DNA of 64,000 nt, taken from contig NZ_JAAMRE010000032.1 of NCBI RefSeq assembly GCF_013522705.1, positions 1 through 64,000 on the forward strand, in the 5' to 3' direction. The position numbers and the translations under genes are program-made. A model generated the notes under the pieces. That model was given only the letters and a program-made list of their open reading frames with translations, searched no databases and had not been told where the DNA came from. The stretch is from Pseudomonas lurida (GTDB lineage: Bacteria > Pseudomonadota > Gammaproteobacteria > Pseudomonadales > Pseudomonadaceae). This document shows positions 34,845 through 40,546 of the stretch, piece by piece; position 1 is the first letter of the stretch, and every line of letters starts with the position of its first letter.

Positions 34845-34921
34845 CGGGGCGTAGCGCAGTCCGGTAGCGCACTAGCATGGGGTGCTAGGGGTCGAGTGTT
34901 CGAATCACTCCGTCCCGACCA
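34845..34921 (+). tRNA. tRNA-Pro(GGG)
   Basis: The 77-base gene folds as a full cloverleaf: acceptor CGGGGCG with CGTCCCG, D arm with GCGCAGTCCGGTAGCGC, anticodon stem CTAGC/GCTAG with loop ATGGGGT (anticodon GGG), T arm GAGTG-TTCGAAT-CACTC, and encoded CCA. It follows ihfA and the MerR gene as in other pseudomonads. It is intact and is the likely insertion site of the adjacent element. Confidence 0.97.
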
Positions 34922-34989: not shown

Positions 34990-36186
34990 TCATCCCGATT
35001 TCCTCCTTAAGATGGTCAGCGCTGGCCCGCGAGAGTCGGTTGCCGACACTTTGTTAGCAGCCTCAATCAGATGCTGCAGCTCCGGGGTAGAATAGTGGCT
35101 TGTGATGCTGCCGTTCTTATGTCCCAACAATGCCTTCCGATCTTCCTCTGTCACGCCAGCTGCACGTAGCCTTCTGCCAAAGGTGTGCTTCAAGTCGTGA
35201 ACGCGGAAAGCCCTGAACCCTGGATGCGCCGGCGACTGGTTGGTTTGTTCCCATTTGTCCGCCGAACGCTTCCTGGCCTTTCTCCACGCCGAGTCATTCA
35301 TTCTGTCCATGGTAGTGGCCCCATATTGATCTGGCTGTCCGTAGGGGAACACCAAGTCTTTGTGCAGGCCGCGCTGCTTGTCGATGATGTTCATCGCCAC
35401 CCTGTTCAGAGTCACCAGGCGTTCATCGCCGTTCTTCACCCCAGCTTTATCACTTCGTCCGCCGAATCCGGCAGGTATCAGAAACACGCTGGTGTTCAGA
35501 TCAGGCACCCGTATCTCCCATTCCCATCGCAACTTGCACACTTCCTGCTCCCGGCACCCCGTGTTCACCTTGTAGAGGGCCATCCTCAACAGATGATCTG
35601 GCAGTTCTGGAAACAGAATCGCCTGCTCTTCCCACGACATCGGGTAGGGCTTCCTGGCCGACCTCTTTTCCTCAAGCATCGATATCATCGGCACGCTTTC
35701 CAGCCACGGCCGTTTTTCAGCATCGCGCCACTTGCGGTGGCACAGGTTCAAGATCCTAACAACACGTTGCAGCGCTATAGTGACCGTCCTGTTCGATACG
35801 CCTGGATTGACCTTCCCTTTGTCCGTCTTGCCTGGCCGCTGCCTGTCACGGATGAATGGGGCCAAGGTCCCGTCATCGATGTGTGTGATCGGCAGATCAC
35901 CGATATACGGGTCAAGCTGTTCGATGTGGGATGCGGAAAGGCCGATCGATGCGTGGTCTTTGAACTCAACCAGGAATCGGGTAGCAGCCTCACGCCAAGT
36001 TCGCACCTGGCGCACGCCGTATATCTTTTCCTGTCGTAGCTTTTCCAGCCGATGAATCAGGTACTGCTCGGCTTCTTCCCTTTCGCTTGCTCCAGTGCTT
36101 TCCTGAAGTCGGCTACCTCGGACGACTTTGTCGATGTGCCAAATCCCGCTCCTCTGGTAGAGGCCCGACATTGTTTTTCGCGCCAT
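34990..36186 (-). CDS. Tyrosine-type phage integrase
   Basis: This 398-residue recombinase has an N-terminal SAM-like core-binding region and a C-terminal catalytic domain. The catalytic residues can be placed: Arg in NTGCREQEVCKLRW, the His-x-x-Arg-like box in HDLKHTFGRRLRAAG, the second His in LLGHKNGSIT and the nucleophilic Tyr in SHYSTPEL. It reads toward tRNA-Pro, 69 bases away, the usual orientation for a tRNA-integrated element. Its first 130 bases overlap the upstream gene; a start at MSGLYQRSG, 15 bases later, is possible. It appears intact. Confidence 0.92.
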   Translation of the reverse strand: MARKTMSGLYQRSGIWHIDKVVRGSRLQESTGASEREEAEQYLIHRLEKLRQEKIYGVRQVRTWREAATRFLVEFKDHASIGLSASHIEQLDPYIGDLPITHIDDGTLAPFIRDRQRPGKTDKGKVNPGVSNRTVTIALQRVVRILNLCHRKWRDAEKRPWLESVPMISMLEEKRSARKPYPMSWEEQAILFPELPDHLLRMALYKVNTGCREQEVCKLRWEWEIRVPDLNTSVFLIPAGFGGRSDKAGVKNGDERLVTLNRVAMNIIDKQRGLHKDLVFPYGQPDQYGATTMDRMNDSAWRKARKRSADKWEQTNQSPAHPGFRAFRVHDLKHTFGRRLRAAGVTEEDRKALLGHKNGSITSHYSTPELQHLIEAANKVSATDSRGPALTILRRKSG

Positions 36187-36458
36187 TGTTTTGCTCCTTG
36201 GCGCCCACTGCGGGGCAGATTGTTGTCCTCATTGGCCTGCTTTTCAATTGCCATGGACTCAGCCCAGGAATCTGCCCACTGATCCAACTCGAGCCGGTCG
36301 AAGCCAACGCCCTGTTTCCCAATGGGGAATTCGCGGACGTTAGGTCGAACGGTCTTGTTAAATTCTTCCCGGCACATGCCCAGGTACGCGGGGGCAGTTG
36401 ACGCTCTCAGGAAGCGCGGCGCGGTCTCTTTGGTGGGTAATGCAGTTGACTTGGCCAT
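36057..36458 (-). CDS. Excisionase/AlpA-like DNA-binding protein
   Basis: The start is set at MAKSTALPTK; the longer frame is not supported. In the 133-residue product residues 20-65 (FLRASTAPAYLGMCREEFNKTVRPNVREFPIGKQGVGFDRLELDQWADSW) resemble the winged-helix fold of AlpA/Xis-type proteins, which bend DNA at att sites and favour excision. The C-terminal 45 codons overlap the integrase gene in another frame, suggesting coupled expression. The rest is polar and unrecognised. Confidence 0.65.
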   Translation of the reverse strand: MAKSTALPTKETAPRFLRASTAPAYLGMCREEFNKTVRPNVREFPIGKQGVGFDRLELDQWADSWAESMAIEKQANEDNNLPRSGRQGAKQWREKQCRASTRGAGFGTSTKSSEVADFRKALEQAKGKKPSST

Positions 36459-36465
36459 GGAGTCA

Positions 36466-36813
36466 TCACTGTTCGATAGAGGACGTTGTTTGCACTGACT
36501 TCCTGACGGGAAAAGCCTCGCCCTCCCATATGCCGGGTTTGCCACGTATCGCGCCATGGAGGCCGTATCGGTGGGGCTTCTTGCTGGCGAATAGCTTTTC
36601 ACACGCCTTTAGCAGGGCCTTTTCGTCGTCCACTGCCAACAACTCCTGGCCAGCCATCGAGCCCACCTGAATCCAGCCGGATTTGTCGCGTCCGTAGTTT
36701 TCTGTCTTGAACAAGCGATACCTGTTCCGGTGTCCGGTACCAGGTGAAGAGGTCTCGGTGTTCATGTAGAGCGCCACGACATCGAGGCGCACCCGCAGTA
36801 CTGTCTTAACCAT
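36466..36813 (-). CDS. Hypothetical phage protein of the integrase operon
   Basis: This 115-residue protein starts at ATG 36813, overlapping the stop of the 55-residue gene upstream (ATGGTTAA). It contains TVLRVRLDVVALYMNTETSS, RYRLFKTENYGRDKSGWIQVGSMAGQELL and a basic C-terminal half. No known motif is recognised. It ends seven bases before the excisionase-like gene, so it belongs to the same transcript. Confidence 0.6.
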   Translation of the reverse strand: MVKTVLRVRLDVVALYMNTETSSPGTGHRNRYRLFKTENYGRDKSGWIQVGSMAGQELLAVDDEKALLKACEKLFASKKPHRYGLHGAIRGKPGIWEGEAFPVRKSVQTTSSIEQ

Positions 36814-36973
36814 CGAGTTCACCACCGTGAAAGTGGTCTGCCAGCACCCGGCGCGCGTCGATCCCGCACGATGCTGAAATGGCGTAGATCTGGCCGAAGG
36901 TGGTTTCCCGACGCAGCAGGGCGTTGAACAGCTCGATCAGGCGATCGCCCAATTGTCCGTTGCGGCGGTTCAT
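36806..36973 (-). CDS. 55-residue phage protein
   Basis: This short frame (MNRRNGQLGDRLIELFNALL... ending FHGGELDG) starts in an ATGA overlap with the stop of the Arc-like gene and ends in an eight-base overlap with the next gene. Overlaps on both sides, a well-formed amphipathic helix (LGDRLIELFNALLRRE) and the absence of any competing frame support it as real. The first half could be helical and DNA-associated, but no family is recognised. Confidence 0.6.
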   Translation of the reverse strand: MNRRNGQLGDRLIELFNALLRRETTFGQIYAISASCGIDARRVLADHFHGGELDG

Positions 36974-37203
36974 AGATCCGAACTCACAGCAGGTGGGAGT
37001 GGAGCGACGGCACTTGCCAGCGCCTTCAGCAGCAAGGCTTGGCGATTCTGTCCGTCCAGATACTGGAGCACGGCTTGGACGAATACGCTGTTCATGCTGC
37101 GGTCCGCGGCGTTCGCAGCCGCTTCAATGTCAGCCCGTAGGCCGTCAGGCAGTCGCACCACAAACTTGTCAGCGGTGCGGGAATCGTATTGGTTGATGCT
37201 CAT
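36970..37203 (-). CDS. Arc-family ribbon-helix-helix repressor
   Basis: The start MSINQYDSRT follows AGGAG by six bases; an eight-codon extension is rejected. The 77-residue protein has the Arc-type strand DKFVVRLPDGLRADIEAAANAADRSMNSVFVQAVLQYL, in which the beta strand residues (KFVVRLP) contact DNA. Such proteins control early phage genes. It heads the minus-strand chain Arc - 55 residues - hypothetical - excisionase - integrase. Confidence 0.85.
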   Translation of the reverse strand: MSINQYDSRTADKFVVRLPDGLRADIEAAANAADRSMNSVFVQAVLQYLDGQNRQALLLKALASAVAPLPPAVSSDL

Positions 37204-37251
37204 GATGATCTCCTGGCGAACTCTCAAAATATTGGGAGCTGAATGAATGGG

Positions 37252-37473
37252 TTAATCGCCTGATTTCGGCGTGGTGATGAGGAGGAATAAGCAAGCACTC
37301 GCAATGAGCCAGACTGCGGTACCGAAGAAAGCCGTTGTCACGTCGAAATCCGAGGAGCTGCTGATCAGGTCGCGGGCGGCAAAAAGCAGCCAGGCGCCAG
37401 AGGCGATGATGTAGAACAGTATGGAAATCATCACTTTGAATAGCTGAAACGGTGTGATGGGCTTAAGTGACAT
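37252..37473 (-). CDS. Small two-pass membrane protein
   Basis: This 73-residue protein is preceded by GGAG at eight bases. Two hydrophobic segments (FKVMISILFYIIASGAWLLF and TAFFGTAVWLIASACLFLLI) are separated by a polar loop. Small membrane proteins near phage immunity regions often act in superinfection exclusion, but nothing in this sequence proves that. The same strand and spacing allow co-transcription with the Arc operon. Confidence 0.6.
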   Translation of the reverse strand: MSLKPITPFQLFKVMISILFYIIASGAWLLFAARDLISSSSDFDVTTAFFGTAVWLIASACLFLLITTPKSGD

Positions 37474-37632: not shown

Positions 37633-37796
37633 ACATGCCGAAATAAAACCCGCCTTGGGTGGCTCGTAGTGGCGAAGTAATGGTGCTAAATTTTGCACAC
37701 CAGTCGCGCTTGGGTAATCAGCCGCGCCGGAGGAGCGTAGGACATACGACCTCTCAGATTGACAAGACACAAAATAACAATCACAGGAAGTGAACT

Positions 37797-37928
37797 ATGA
37801 AAATTATCACCCTCGTACTCGCGACAGTTCTTGCTGTCACCTCTGTATCTGCAATCGCTCACGGCGGTCGTACCGACAAGCAGGGGTGTCACAACGATAA
37901 GAAGGCGGGTACACGGCATTGTCACTGA
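37797..37928 (+). CDS. YHYH-domain small secreted protein
   Basis: This 43-residue protein follows AGGAAG. It has a signal peptide (IITLVLATVLAVTSVSAIA). The mature part GGRTDKQGCHNDKKAGTRHCH is the short Cys/His pattern of YHYH-domain proteins, found alone or fused to nucleases and possibly metal-binding. It is the first gene rightward of the operator cluster. Function is unknown. Confidence 0.75.
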   Translation: MKIITLVLATVLAVTSVSAIAHGGRTDKQGCHNDKKAGTRHCH

Positions 37929-37967
37929 TCTAAGCCCGGATTCAGTGTTGCCTTGTAGAAAGCTGGC

Positions 37968-38204
37968 ATGCACCTCGCGAACCCATCCCAATTGCGCCGC
38001 GACCTGAAAGAGGCTGCGGCCCTATGTAAGTGGTTGGGCATCGATCTGGTGCGGGCAGTTGTGCGGCTATCTGAGGCTGGTCAGGAAGATGAAGCCAAGG
38101 ATTTGCAGAGGATTGCAGCGAGCTACCAGGATGTCGAGGACAGGCTGGCGGGCCATGCGGATGAGGTCAATGCTGGAAGAATTTTGCGTGGGAAGGCTGA
38201 GTAG
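37968..38204 (+). CDS. Small hypothetical phage protein
   Basis: This 78-residue helical protein (LANPSQLRRDLKEAAALCKWLG..., EAGQEDEAKDLQRIAASYQDVEDRLAGHADEV) is highly charged, with no signal peptide. It lies 39 bases after the YHYH gene on the same strand. The composition fits a small coiled-coil or helical-bundle protein. No family is recognised. Confidence 0.55.
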   Translation: MHLANPSQLRRDLKEAAALCKWLGIDLVRAVVRLSEAGQEDEAKDLQRIAASYQDVEDRLAGHADEVNAGRILRGKAE

Positions 38205-38252
38205 AAAGCGCAACGAATCTGGTCATTCGACCAGCACAAGGGAGCGAGTCTG

Positions 38253-38771
38253 GTGACAACCATCAAGTTCAGTTACAGGGATGCAAAGGGTGATTTGAGT
38301 CATCGCGAGCTGATCCAGTGGTCAGAGAACTCGCTCTACATTCAGGGGAGATCTGCTGCTGACTCATTCCCTAAAACCTTCAGGAAAGACCGCATAGTTG
38401 AAGTCTACTTTGGTTCGGAGCTGTTGCTGAATGACGCCGCACCACCTGCTCCAGAGCTGCTGCAAAAAACACGACCCTCGGCCAAAGCTGTGTGGGCTGC
38501 TACTTCCCAGCATCCATCGCCAAAGGCAACGCTTGGCGGTATTAACCAAATTCTTTTCACGGGCTTTGCGGCGGTATACCGAGCCGAGCTTGAGCAAAAA
38601 GCATTAGATTCAGGATTCAAAGTGATGAGTACACCTGGTAAAACGCTGACCTTTCTCTGCTATGGCGATAACGCTGGACCTACTAAGGTTGCGAAAGCCC
38701 AGGAGGCCGGGGCCTTCATCATTGATGCTGAGCAGTTTCTGACTTTGATAATGACCGGCGAGATGTCTTAG
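38253..38771 (+). CDS. BRCT-domain phage protein
   Basis: This 172-residue protein uses a GTG start after GGGAG. The N-terminal half (TIKFSYRDAKGDLSHRELIQW ... RKDRIVEVYF) looks like a small beta-rich WYL-adjacent or SH3-like module. The C-terminal half (residues about 95-168: ILFTGFAAVYRAELEQKALDSGFKVMSTPGKTLTFLCYGDN ... AFIIDAEQFLTLI) is a BRCT domain as in bacterial DNA ligase. BRCT domains bind DNA ends or phosphopeptides. It lacks ligase motifs. It lies between the YHYH cluster and the BstA-like gene. Confidence 0.75.
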   Translation: MTTIKFSYRDAKGDLSHRELIQWSENSLYIQGRSAADSFPKTFRKDRIVEVYFGSELLLNDAAPPAPELLQKTRPSAKAVWAATSQHPSPKATLGGINQILFTGFAAVYRAELEQKALDSGFKVMSTPGKTLTFLCYGDNAGPTKVAKAQEAGAFIIDAEQFLTLIMTGEMS

Positions 38772-38933
38772 CGGGAGCGGGCATGGCGTGACGGAATGTT
38801 GTAGCAGGTTGTGCGGATAGGTTGAAAGCGGGAAGGTTCGTTCGACTAGCGAGTACTTAGCATCGGCAAGCAGGAAACGCTTGGACGCTATATCAAGCGC
38901 ACATGCACACCACATAAAACCGTTTTAAATCAG

Positions 38934-39854
38934 ATGGATATGAGAAAAATGGCTAATTTGCCCACCAGCCCTAAATCACAGATGCCTTTAGCAATTGATG
39001 CTCAGATTGAGATCGATGGCATTGGTATGGGCGTACTTTCGGATGGTACGCCTTTTCTAACTGCGCGCGGTCTGGCCCGATTATGTGGCATTCAGCACAC
39101 GTCGATCTTGGATATTGCAAACGACTGGGCATCGAATAGGCCGGCAATTACCAAAATTCACTCGCTGCTTCAAACACATGGGCTGACCTATGAGGAGCCT
39201 TACACAACGGTTGTTGACAAAGGCACGATGTCACATGCGTACCCAGATGGCGTCTGCTTGGCGATCTTAGAATATTACGCATTTGAAGCAGGAATAAATC
39301 GTAAAGACGAAGCACTGATGAACTTCAGGCTTCTTGCTGGTAAAGCTCTTCGAGACTTCATTTACACGCAGGTCGGATACGATCCAGAGAACCACGTTCC
39401 CACTCAGTGGAAGCAGTTCCACGATAGGATGTCTCTGGTCTACAACGCGGTACCAGCGGGTTACTTTGGGGTGTTCAAAGAAATCGCTGATATGGTCGTC
39501 CATCTTGGGCAGAGCGGAATTCATATTGATAGCACCTTTGTTCCTGACGGTAGCGTGGGAATACATTGGGCAAAGCATTGGAAGACCGCTGAGTTAGAAA
39601 ACGTTTACAGCCCACGAATCAAATACGAACACAACTACCCAGATTATTTCCCGCAAGCCCTGTCGAACCCTCAAGAGTCAAACTGCTATCCAGAGTCCGC
39701 CCTGGGGGAGTTTCGGAGGTGGTTCCGTGAGGTATACATAGGCGCTGGCAAGTTTGAGGCGTACCTGACAACGAAGGTCAAAGCCAAGGCTCTGCCGATA
39801 TCTGTAGCTCAGTTAGCCATTTCTTCGTACGCAAATCAGCAGCTTCTCAAGTAA
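38934..39854 (+). CDS. BstA-like prophage-encoded abortive-infection protein
   Basis: This protein has 306 residues; starts at 38940 or 38949 are also possible. It has no signal or membrane segment. The N-terminal part (GIGMGVLSDGTPFLTARGLARLCG) fits a KilA-N-like DNA-binding region, and the C-terminal half (KYEHNYPDYFPQALSNP, LGEFRRWFREVYI) matches my recollection of BstA of Salmonella phage BTP1 and its prophage homologues. BstA proteins stop replication of incoming phages and are silenced by an aba DNA element near their own gene. The gene is AT-richer than its surroundings and ends in a terminator. The call is from memory, without alignment. Confidence 0.65.
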   Translation: MDMRKMANLPTSPKSQMPLAIDAQIEIDGIGMGVLSDGTPFLTARGLARLCGIQHTSILDIANDWASNRPAITKIHSLLQTHGLTYEEPYTTVVDKGTMSHAYPDGVCLAILEYYAFEAGINRKDEALMNFRLLAGKALRDFIYTQVGYDPENHVPTQWKQFHDRMSLVYNAVPAGYFGVFKEIADMVVHLGQSGIHIDSTFVPDGSVGIHWAKHWKTAELENVYSPRIKYEHNYPDYFPQALSNPQESNCYPESALGEFRRWFREVYIGAGKFEAYLTTKVKAKALPISVAQLAISSYANQQLLK

Positions 39855-39881
39855 TAGGCTTTTTCGCTGTATAGAGCTCGG

Positions 39882-39900
39882 CCCGGCCTCGCGCCGGGTT
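39882..39900. terminator. Terminator between bstA-like and relE genes
   Basis: CCCGGC, loop CTCGC, GCCGGG then TTTCTT lies between convergent stops. Confidence 0.7.
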
Positions 39901-39912
39901 TCTTGTCTCTGC

Positions 39913-40200
39913 CTACCGCTTCCCCGCCTGCTGATACACAGAGCTTCGCTCGCGTTTGCCGACAGCCAGCACCAGGATGACAATTCGCTCGTCCTCAACG
40001 CGGTACACAAGTCGGTAGCCGGCGCCGCGCAATTTGATCTTGTAGCAGTCCTTCATGCCATGAAGCGCATCGCCTGGCACTCGCGGGCCGGACTGCCGCT
40101 CCTGGAGCTTTTTCAGAAACTGGAGGCGTATTGTTCCGTCGAGTTTACGCAACTCCTTCAGTGCCTTCGGATCCCACTCAACCTCGTACTCAGCGGCCAT
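39913..40200 (-). CDS. RelE/ParE-type toxin
   Basis: This 95-residue basic protein begins MAAEYEVEWDPKALKELRKLD. The typical RelE body follows: HGMKDCYKIKLRGAGYRLVYRVEDERIVILVLAVGKRERSSVYQQA, with Arg and Lys residues suited to ribosome-dependent mRNA cleavage. It overlaps its antitoxin by 11 bases, antitoxin first, the classical relBE order. No frameshift is seen, so it should be functional. Confidence 0.9.
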   Translation of the reverse strand: MAAEYEVEWDPKALKELRKLDGTIRLQFLKKLQERQSGPRVPGDALHGMKDCYKIKLRGAGYRLVYRVEDERIVILVLAVGKRERSSVYQQAGKR

Positions 40201-40477
40201 TGGCGATATCTGCCTCTGCCTCGCCAATCAGATCGTCCAGAGATACCCGAACAGGTGTTTCTTTAGCATCGAGCCGAGCCTTGACCAGTTGGACCAGCTC
40301 CAGTTCGTCCAGGCGCTCAACCATCGCCTCGTAGACGTTTGCTGGAACCATGTAGCCCATAACGCGGTTGTGGTTCAGCACAGCCACAGGCATGCCGTTG
40401 GCGCCGCTCAAGACGGAGGAGGGGTTCTTCTTGAGTTCAGATACGCTGACGGCCACATCAGCCAGAATATTTTGCAT
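40190..40477 (-). CDS. Phd/YefM-type antitoxin
   Basis: This 95-residue protein starts at MQNILADVAVSVSELKKNPSSVL after AGGAG at eight bases. GMPVAVLNHNRVMGYMVPANVYEAMVERLDELELVQL is the Phd/YefM DNA-binding and dimer region; the acidic C-terminal tail would wrap the toxin. It is expected to repress its own promoter with the toxin. A tandem stretch of AGAC/GTCT half-sites just upstream may be that operator. Confidence 0.9.
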   Translation of the reverse strand: MQNILADVAVSVSELKKNPSSVLSGANGMPVAVLNHNRVMGYMVPANVYEAMVERLDELELVQLVKARLDAKETPVRVSLDDLIGEAEADIANGR

Positions 40478-40546
40478 AGATAAGACTCCTAGATAGGTCT
40501 TTATTCTGGTCTTTTTGTCATGGTGTGGCAAGCGCCTGCTATGTGC

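Follow-up and report, generated by a model that had tools for sequence, protein, structure and literature searches.

In the window (the whole 64,000-nucleotide stretch of Pseudomonas lurida DNA that was analysed), a bstA gene lies ∼4 kb from a tRNA-Pro gene, behind an integrase gene and small phage genes, in an island with the following features:

34845..34921, + strand: tRNA-Pro (GGG), at which the island is integrated; copies of its 3′ end flank related elements of 42–52 kb
34990..36186, − strand: tyrosine integrase (Pfam Phage_integrase, 3.2e-12; PHROG 1, 6.9e-40)
36057..36602, − strand: phage gene, PHROG 13517, function unknown (5.5e-64)
36466..36825, − strand: phage gene, PHROG 11312, function unknown (1.5e-47)
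36970..37227, − strand: Arc-like DNA-binding protein (Pfam Arc, 1.5e-10)
37252..37473, − strand: small protein, PHROG 11742 (2.6e-06)
37968..38204, + strand: phage gene, PHROG 6388 (2e-15), left edge of a variable cargo slot; also in L251 and L023/L103
38253..38771, + strand: BRCT-domain gene (Pfam BRCT, 1.3e-05), DNA-ligase-like PHROG 2561 (6.4e-37)
38949..39854, + strand: bstA; the preferred start gives 301 aa, and 38934 would give 306 aa
39880..39900, + strand: terminator-like hairpin after bstA

The initial annotation had placed the gene in a degraded prophage, and this was borne out, as none of the eight island proteins scanned matched a structural PHROG family and relatives of the integrase sit in 42–52-kb prophages. 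Across the genus, 73 of 398 genomes, among them the one that holds the window, gave a match to the integrase at 1e-60. Integrases that are 90–92% identical to that of the window lie in elements flanked by repeats of the tRNA-Pro 3′ end, with lengths of 41.9 kb (G171), 44.3 kb (G261) and 51.8 kb (G197) when measured to the nearest copy (G171 and G197 have one more copy beyond). In the two of these three elements that were scanned (G171 and G261), terminase, head, portal or tail genes are present, and each of 10 large proteins taken from them had a match among phage families for structure, packaging or lysis, which for three of the proteins was not the top match. Only a single tRNA 3′-end copy was found in the stretch examined around the integrase of G005 (83% identity), and in G191 (85%; integrase broken by a stop) two copies are just 6.7 kb apart. 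A second copy of the tRNA-Pro 3′ end, which would mark the right-hand att site, was not found in the 64-kb window, and no replication gene was recognised in the island in Pfam and PHROG scans. The presence of an integrase and phage genes beside bstA and the prophage setting of the integrase relatives support the reading of bstA as cargo of a ∼5-kb prophage remnant, with the caution that compact elements with such an integrase exist. Association with prophages is a tendency among BstA homologues, reported for 79% of them (PMC8585504).

In another genome of the same species (G040), the left part of the island is shared at 81% nucleotide identity with different cargo, and near-identity to the window (98.7%) resumes at 39881. 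A counterpart of the BRCT gene was absent in blastn comparisons from L023 and L103, which are otherwise matching bstA islands. The stretch from the PHROG 6388 gene to 39881 therefore behaves as a cargo slot. In G040 this slot holds DUF6978 and DUF1828 genes (L251:3585-4876) in place of the BRCT gene and bstA, and related tRNA-Pro islands carry uracil-DNA-glycosylase-like genes (L282:5705-6442 and L288:7032-7820). The BRCT gene, directly 5′ of bstA, gave a weak PADLOC match to the candidate system PDC-S48 (1.7e-06). A ParE-type toxin gene and a Phd/YefM antitoxin gene (39913-40531, − strand) adjoin the right side of the island and are 98 and 100% identical in G040.

The 306-codon frame at 38934-39854 (+ strand) is intact and contains both motifs on which its initial assignment to BstA was based, and profile and tblastn searches upheld that assignment with a match far beyond chance. 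The PADLOC BstA profile covered residues 13–301 of 306 (E 2.1e-119), and PHROG 6287 was matched at 5.9e-92. The protein is 45.9% identical to BstA of Salmonella phage BTP1 over residues 24–287 and 76.7% identical to a protein of Pseudomonas phage D14H. When PADLOC was applied to BstA and five island neighbours, a weaker HTH model also matched the BstA protein. By its sequence, the gene encodes a BstA abortive-infection protein; neither this family member nor the remnant that carries it is out of the ordinary. Its start is probably the ATG at 38949 rather than 38934, which gives 301 aa. This placement is based on the starts available in relatives: before the conserved MGVL motif, L104 (82% identical) has in-frame starts only at the 38949 equivalent and further inside, L106 has the 38949 equivalent as its sole in-frame start, and the D14H protein is annotated from the 38949-equivalent start. 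BstA residue numbers given below for the helix and alignment columns count from 38949. Among other family members, bstA of Salmonella phage S137 (L018:1938-2860) is split between two annotated frames, as it is in the entries for S107 and S135; these are perhaps broken copies. Five proteins from phage records (H31–H35) match the C-terminal half of BstA only (from approximately residue 164 of BTP1 BstA), and some of them are annotated as KilA-N or DNA-binding, so the BstA C-terminal domain may join other N-terminal domains.

BstA of phage BTP1, which belongs to the same protein family, halts phage DNA replication and is active in E. coli K-12 MG1655 against lambda (Owen et al. 2021, PMC8585504). 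The BTP1 aba element, 63 bp long, acts as DNA and lies across the start codon (−29 to +34 of bstA), with terminal CCCGCC direct repeats that are each required, a single change in either of them abolishing aba (PMC8585504). The main text of that report gives the aba sequence for BTP1 only, contains no mention of IHF, and leaves open both the mechanism of BstA silencing by aba DNA and the basis on which each aba is specific for its own BstA. A Pseudomonas BstA, as in the window, has also been described in Pseudomonas protegens, to which the window protein is likened here by description; in a GRP-activated strain, one phage plated better once that bstA had been deleted (PMC11888443). The P. protegens BstA is regulated by Gac/Rsm and comes from a different species (PMC11888443).

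The DNA around the start codon was compared across bstA loci. Relatives were kept from genome contigs (80 of 167) and from two viral scans (80 of 207 and 80 of 99). The collection comprised 248 records including the window, with 247 matched on the + strand; six records without the MGVL anchor in the expected place were dropped, 241 gave an anchor, and removal of two more with <200 bases upstream left 239 loci, of which 145 were non-redundant. A search of E. coli genomes with the CL707 bstA region matched mostly the upstream repressor end, and 33 of 5426 genomes covered at least 80% of the query. A spacing of 56/57 and a central motif were first noticed by eye in printed loci and then counted, so that only the held-out sets, used for the word pairs and for the helix association, are fresh to the analysis. 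Of the 145 loci, 69 have an exact 6-mer pair around the start at spacing 57 and 38 have one at spacing 56, compared with 5, 2 and 3 (spacing 57) and 1, 2 and 0 (spacing 56) in three control windows. When the loci were grouped into 62 clusters at 70% protein identity, 41 clusters had a 6-mer pair at 56/57 (mean of 2.53 and maximum of 7 at other spacings), and 27 had an 8-mer pair (mean of 0.24). With spacing 55 included, 107 of the 145 loci have an exact pair of at least 6 bases; 38, the window among them, have no exact 6-base pair at 55–57. Of 94 new loci, 72 were set aside for overlap with earlier loci or with each other, or for insufficient DNA upstream, which left a held-out set of 22. Eleven of these 22 loci have an exact 6-mer pair at 56/57, and other spacings gave a mean of 0.71 and a maximum of 2.

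The words vary strongly among loci (e.g. CCCGCCA, AAGGAAATC, CGCGATCACCCC and GGCGGCACCCCT), yet they match inside a locus. The mean longest word match is 7.21 within a locus, compared with 3.88 against random loci and 5.24 against the three nearest relatives; against relatives with <85% identity, the corresponding values are 4.74 and 4.82 (Wilcoxon 2e-18 and 6e-19). As judged from this sequence comparison, most of the bstA loci compared contain two head-to-tail copies of a locus-specific word, 55–57 bp apart around the start. The BTP1 aba (63 bp) stretches from one such word to the other, with a spacing of 56 and a perfect central site (see below). Because the BTP1 aba spans such a pair, and is the only element mapped in the text of PMC8585504, the word pairs elsewhere are suggested to mark the aba elements of their own loci.

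Between the two words lies a second conserved element that resembles the published IHF consensus, WATCAANNNNTTR (WATCAAnnnnTTR; PMC10380432). It was counted in 114 loci, namely those with a scored pair at 55–57 in a set position range. A perfect WATCAANNNNTTR is present in 25 of the 114 loci and in none of 13 control windows, a site with at most one mismatch in 61 (controls 0–3), and one with at most two mismatches in 87 (controls 2–14). Eighteen of 49 cluster representatives have a site with at most one mismatch, a number that was not reached by any of 2000 permuted consensuses (best 15); 200 rounds of shuffling gave a mean of 1.73 and a maximum of 6. An unsupervised EM motif search returned AAATCAA....tTA de novo. 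Among its controls, two coding windows yielded stronger motifs, for which the conservation of the protein is the expected cause, and two upstream windows yielded weaker ones. Loci without a word pair have a site with at most two mismatches in 29 of 38 cases (90 of 107 loci with a pair) and with at most one mismatch in 10 of 38 (62 of 107 with a pair). The element could instead be a translation or coding signal near the bstA start, with aba consisting of the word pair only. The 61 sites fall into two codon phases (43 and 18, with none in the third), and 46 of them could be translated, so coding constraint may contribute to the conservation of the site. However, 15 of the 61 sites precede the first possible start, and both half-motifs and the 4-bp gap fit the published IHF consensus, which no permuted consensus equalled in performance. 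We consider an origin of the motif in translation or coding possible, though rather doubtful.

The words may be read by the N-terminal part of BstA. A confident AlphaFold2 model calculated with 113 homologues (mean pLDDT of 92.3) contains helices at residues 39–46 and 50–58, which we read as a predicted helix-turn-helix, given weak VIA-align matches to MerR-type and partition-protein DNA-binding domains. The second of these helices is encoded as follows:

39096..39122, + strand: codons of helix 50–58 (HTSILDIAN), the second helix of the predicted N-terminal helix-turn-helix

The KilA-N-like N terminus proposed in the initial annotation found no counterpart in Pfam, where window BstA had no match at 0.1. 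The best VIA-align rows for the N terminus were weak (4ye7, Z 6.6; the Mbp1 DNA-binding domain 1mb1, Z 4.3), Foldseek returned nothing from the PDB at E 0.001, and a PDB sequence search with alignment A2 returned 4ham only, at 0.36. Naming a fold for this region was dropped, the VIA-align Z scores being only middling.

In an association test of 115 loci, in which overall identity was removed rather than the full tree, similarity between the words of two loci was best predicted, among 258 columns, by residues 54, 55, 50, 52 and 51, which have partial correlations of 0.29–0.35 (mean over all columns 0.002, SD 0.081). These five residues also come out on top when only the first words or only the second words are used, and in pairs with <70% identity; in pairs with <55% identity, residue 51 drops to seventh. 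Residues 55, 50, 49, 52 and 54 lead among 50 cluster representatives. Full permutation, carried out 300 times without preserving the tree, gave no value above 0.070 for the best six-column window, compared with 0.290 observed. Examples of the correspondence are NAHIGT with AAGGAAATC, NLHIRT with AAGGAACTC, and HxVIQD with CCCGCCA or CCGCCAG. In the held-out set, 19 of the 22 loci entered this test, and residues 54, 50, 49 and 55 ranked 2, 3, 5 and 9 of 259, with residue 40 first and residues 51 and 52 at ranks 64 and 116, which is a partial confirmation of the association. The association with residues 50–55 leads us to infer that helix 50–58 reads the word.

In the window, the corresponding positions hold the following features:

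38904..38912, + strand: first word of the candidate aba, TGCACACCA
38928..38940, + strand: IHF-like site AATCAGATGGATA, with one mismatch to WATCARNNNNTTR (the WATCAR form) and two to WATCAANNNNTTR (the WATCAA form)
38959..38967, + strand: second word of the candidate aba, TGCCCACCA, within the bstA coding sequence

This is the best pair of the window (TGCACACCA/TGCCCACCA), with 8 of 9 bases matching at a spacing of 55. When the upstream DNA was shuffled 2000 times, 100 of the shuffles scored as well. L103 and L023 are identical to the window at the pair. The window pair is supported by its sister loci, because the CACCA core of the first word is aligned in L103, L023, L104, L105, L014 and L106, because L104, L014 and L106 have exact 7–8-base pairs at spacing 57 (in L104, an imperfect pair at 56 is a rival to it), and because the helix residues HTSILD are common to the window, L104 and L014. 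Most likely, the aba of the window is the stretch 38904-38967 and not the AGGTT repeats proposed earlier (see below). It may be a weakened element; we speculate that a remnant perhaps no longer needs full self-immunity. The window differs from BTP1 in the setting of bstA, a 5-kb remnant in which neither a repressor gene nor a replication gene was recognised, in its repeat core (CACCA versus CCCGCC) and in its spacing (55 versus 56).

We think it likely that bstA is BstA cargo of the remnant and that its aba at 38904-38967 comprises a word pair and an IHF-type site, is read by BstA, and forms a complex that holds BstA inactive. In this arrangement, BstA would bind both words, IHF would fold the DNA between them, and BstA in the complex would be inactive against replication of DNA that carries the words. 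The binding of the words by BstA and the participation of IHF are deduced from the comparisons described above. By analogy only, the IHF-bent complex is likened to E. coli datA, where IHF bends DNA between sites for a replication protein and helps to switch off DnaA; datA differs in using DnaA boxes and ATP hydrolysis (PMC10380432). We also lean, by a little, towards aba being a general nucleoprotein off-switch made of two IHF-folded BstA boxes, the sequence of which is set by a code in helix 50–58, so that specificity could be read across the family. The comparison thus puts forward specific components, namely a word pair, a central bend site and a reading helix, which would predict which bstA loci share immunity and make the specificity of BstA for aba testable. 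If true, this would be an example of a defence protein governed by a small DNA element in coevolution with the recognition helix of that protein. The interest of the locus lies in this anatomy of aba, brought out by checking bstA, rather than in the gene or the remnant themselves. In the literature searched, mostly at the level of listings, no description of aba in other loci was recognised, and the proposed anatomy was not found there.

The element could also be primarily an operator for autorepression of bstA, with self-immunity a by-product in phages that replicate to many copies. It straddles the bstA start region and persists, imperfectly, in the island of the window, where no replication gene was recognised, and word pairs are about equally frequent in genome contigs (50 of 70) and viral contigs (52 of 67). 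However, immunity cannot be explained by autorepression alone, given that BTP1 aba DNA on a plasmid acts in trans on BstA that is expressed separately (PMC8585504). A search of 37700-39950 for promoter-like sites found none, which decides nothing on autorepression. We regard a primary role as operator as a minority possibility, and prefer an aba that silences BstA.

Retention of bstA for defence, as suggested in the initial annotation, is consistent with its divergence from the nearly identical gene of L103. The two genes differ at 12 synonymous and three non-synonymous positions (dN/dS 0.07), a ratio which indicates that bstA is under purifying selection. The lack of structural genes in the island and the imperfect aba pair could instead mark bstA as an inactive relic, which is improbable for a gene that has this excess of synonymous differences, an intact frame and every residue that is invariant among 13 aligned proteins.

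The repeats that the initial annotation had put forward as part of an aba-like silencing element are:

38806..38838, + strand: three AGGTT repeats, judged not functional

The motif does occur at 38806, 38819 and 38834, but its clustering is not noteworthy: the 162-bp stretch was shuffled 2000 times with dinucleotides preserved, and 92 of the shuffles (∼5%) had some 5-mer three times within 34 bp. Upstream of bstA in nine relatives, there are two AGGTT copies in L104 and L105, one in L103, L023, L014 and L013, and none in L106, L107 and L010; in the 99%-identical L103 and L023, the third copy alone aligns. The repeats were rejected as aba on account of this frequent clustering in shuffles and the loss of two of three copies in L103/L023, and we give them almost no chance of being an aba-like element: all three copies lie >90 bases 5′ of either start, outside the −29 to +34 range of the BTP1 aba, and the positions equivalent to that range hold the other word pair, the core of which is kept in sister loci.
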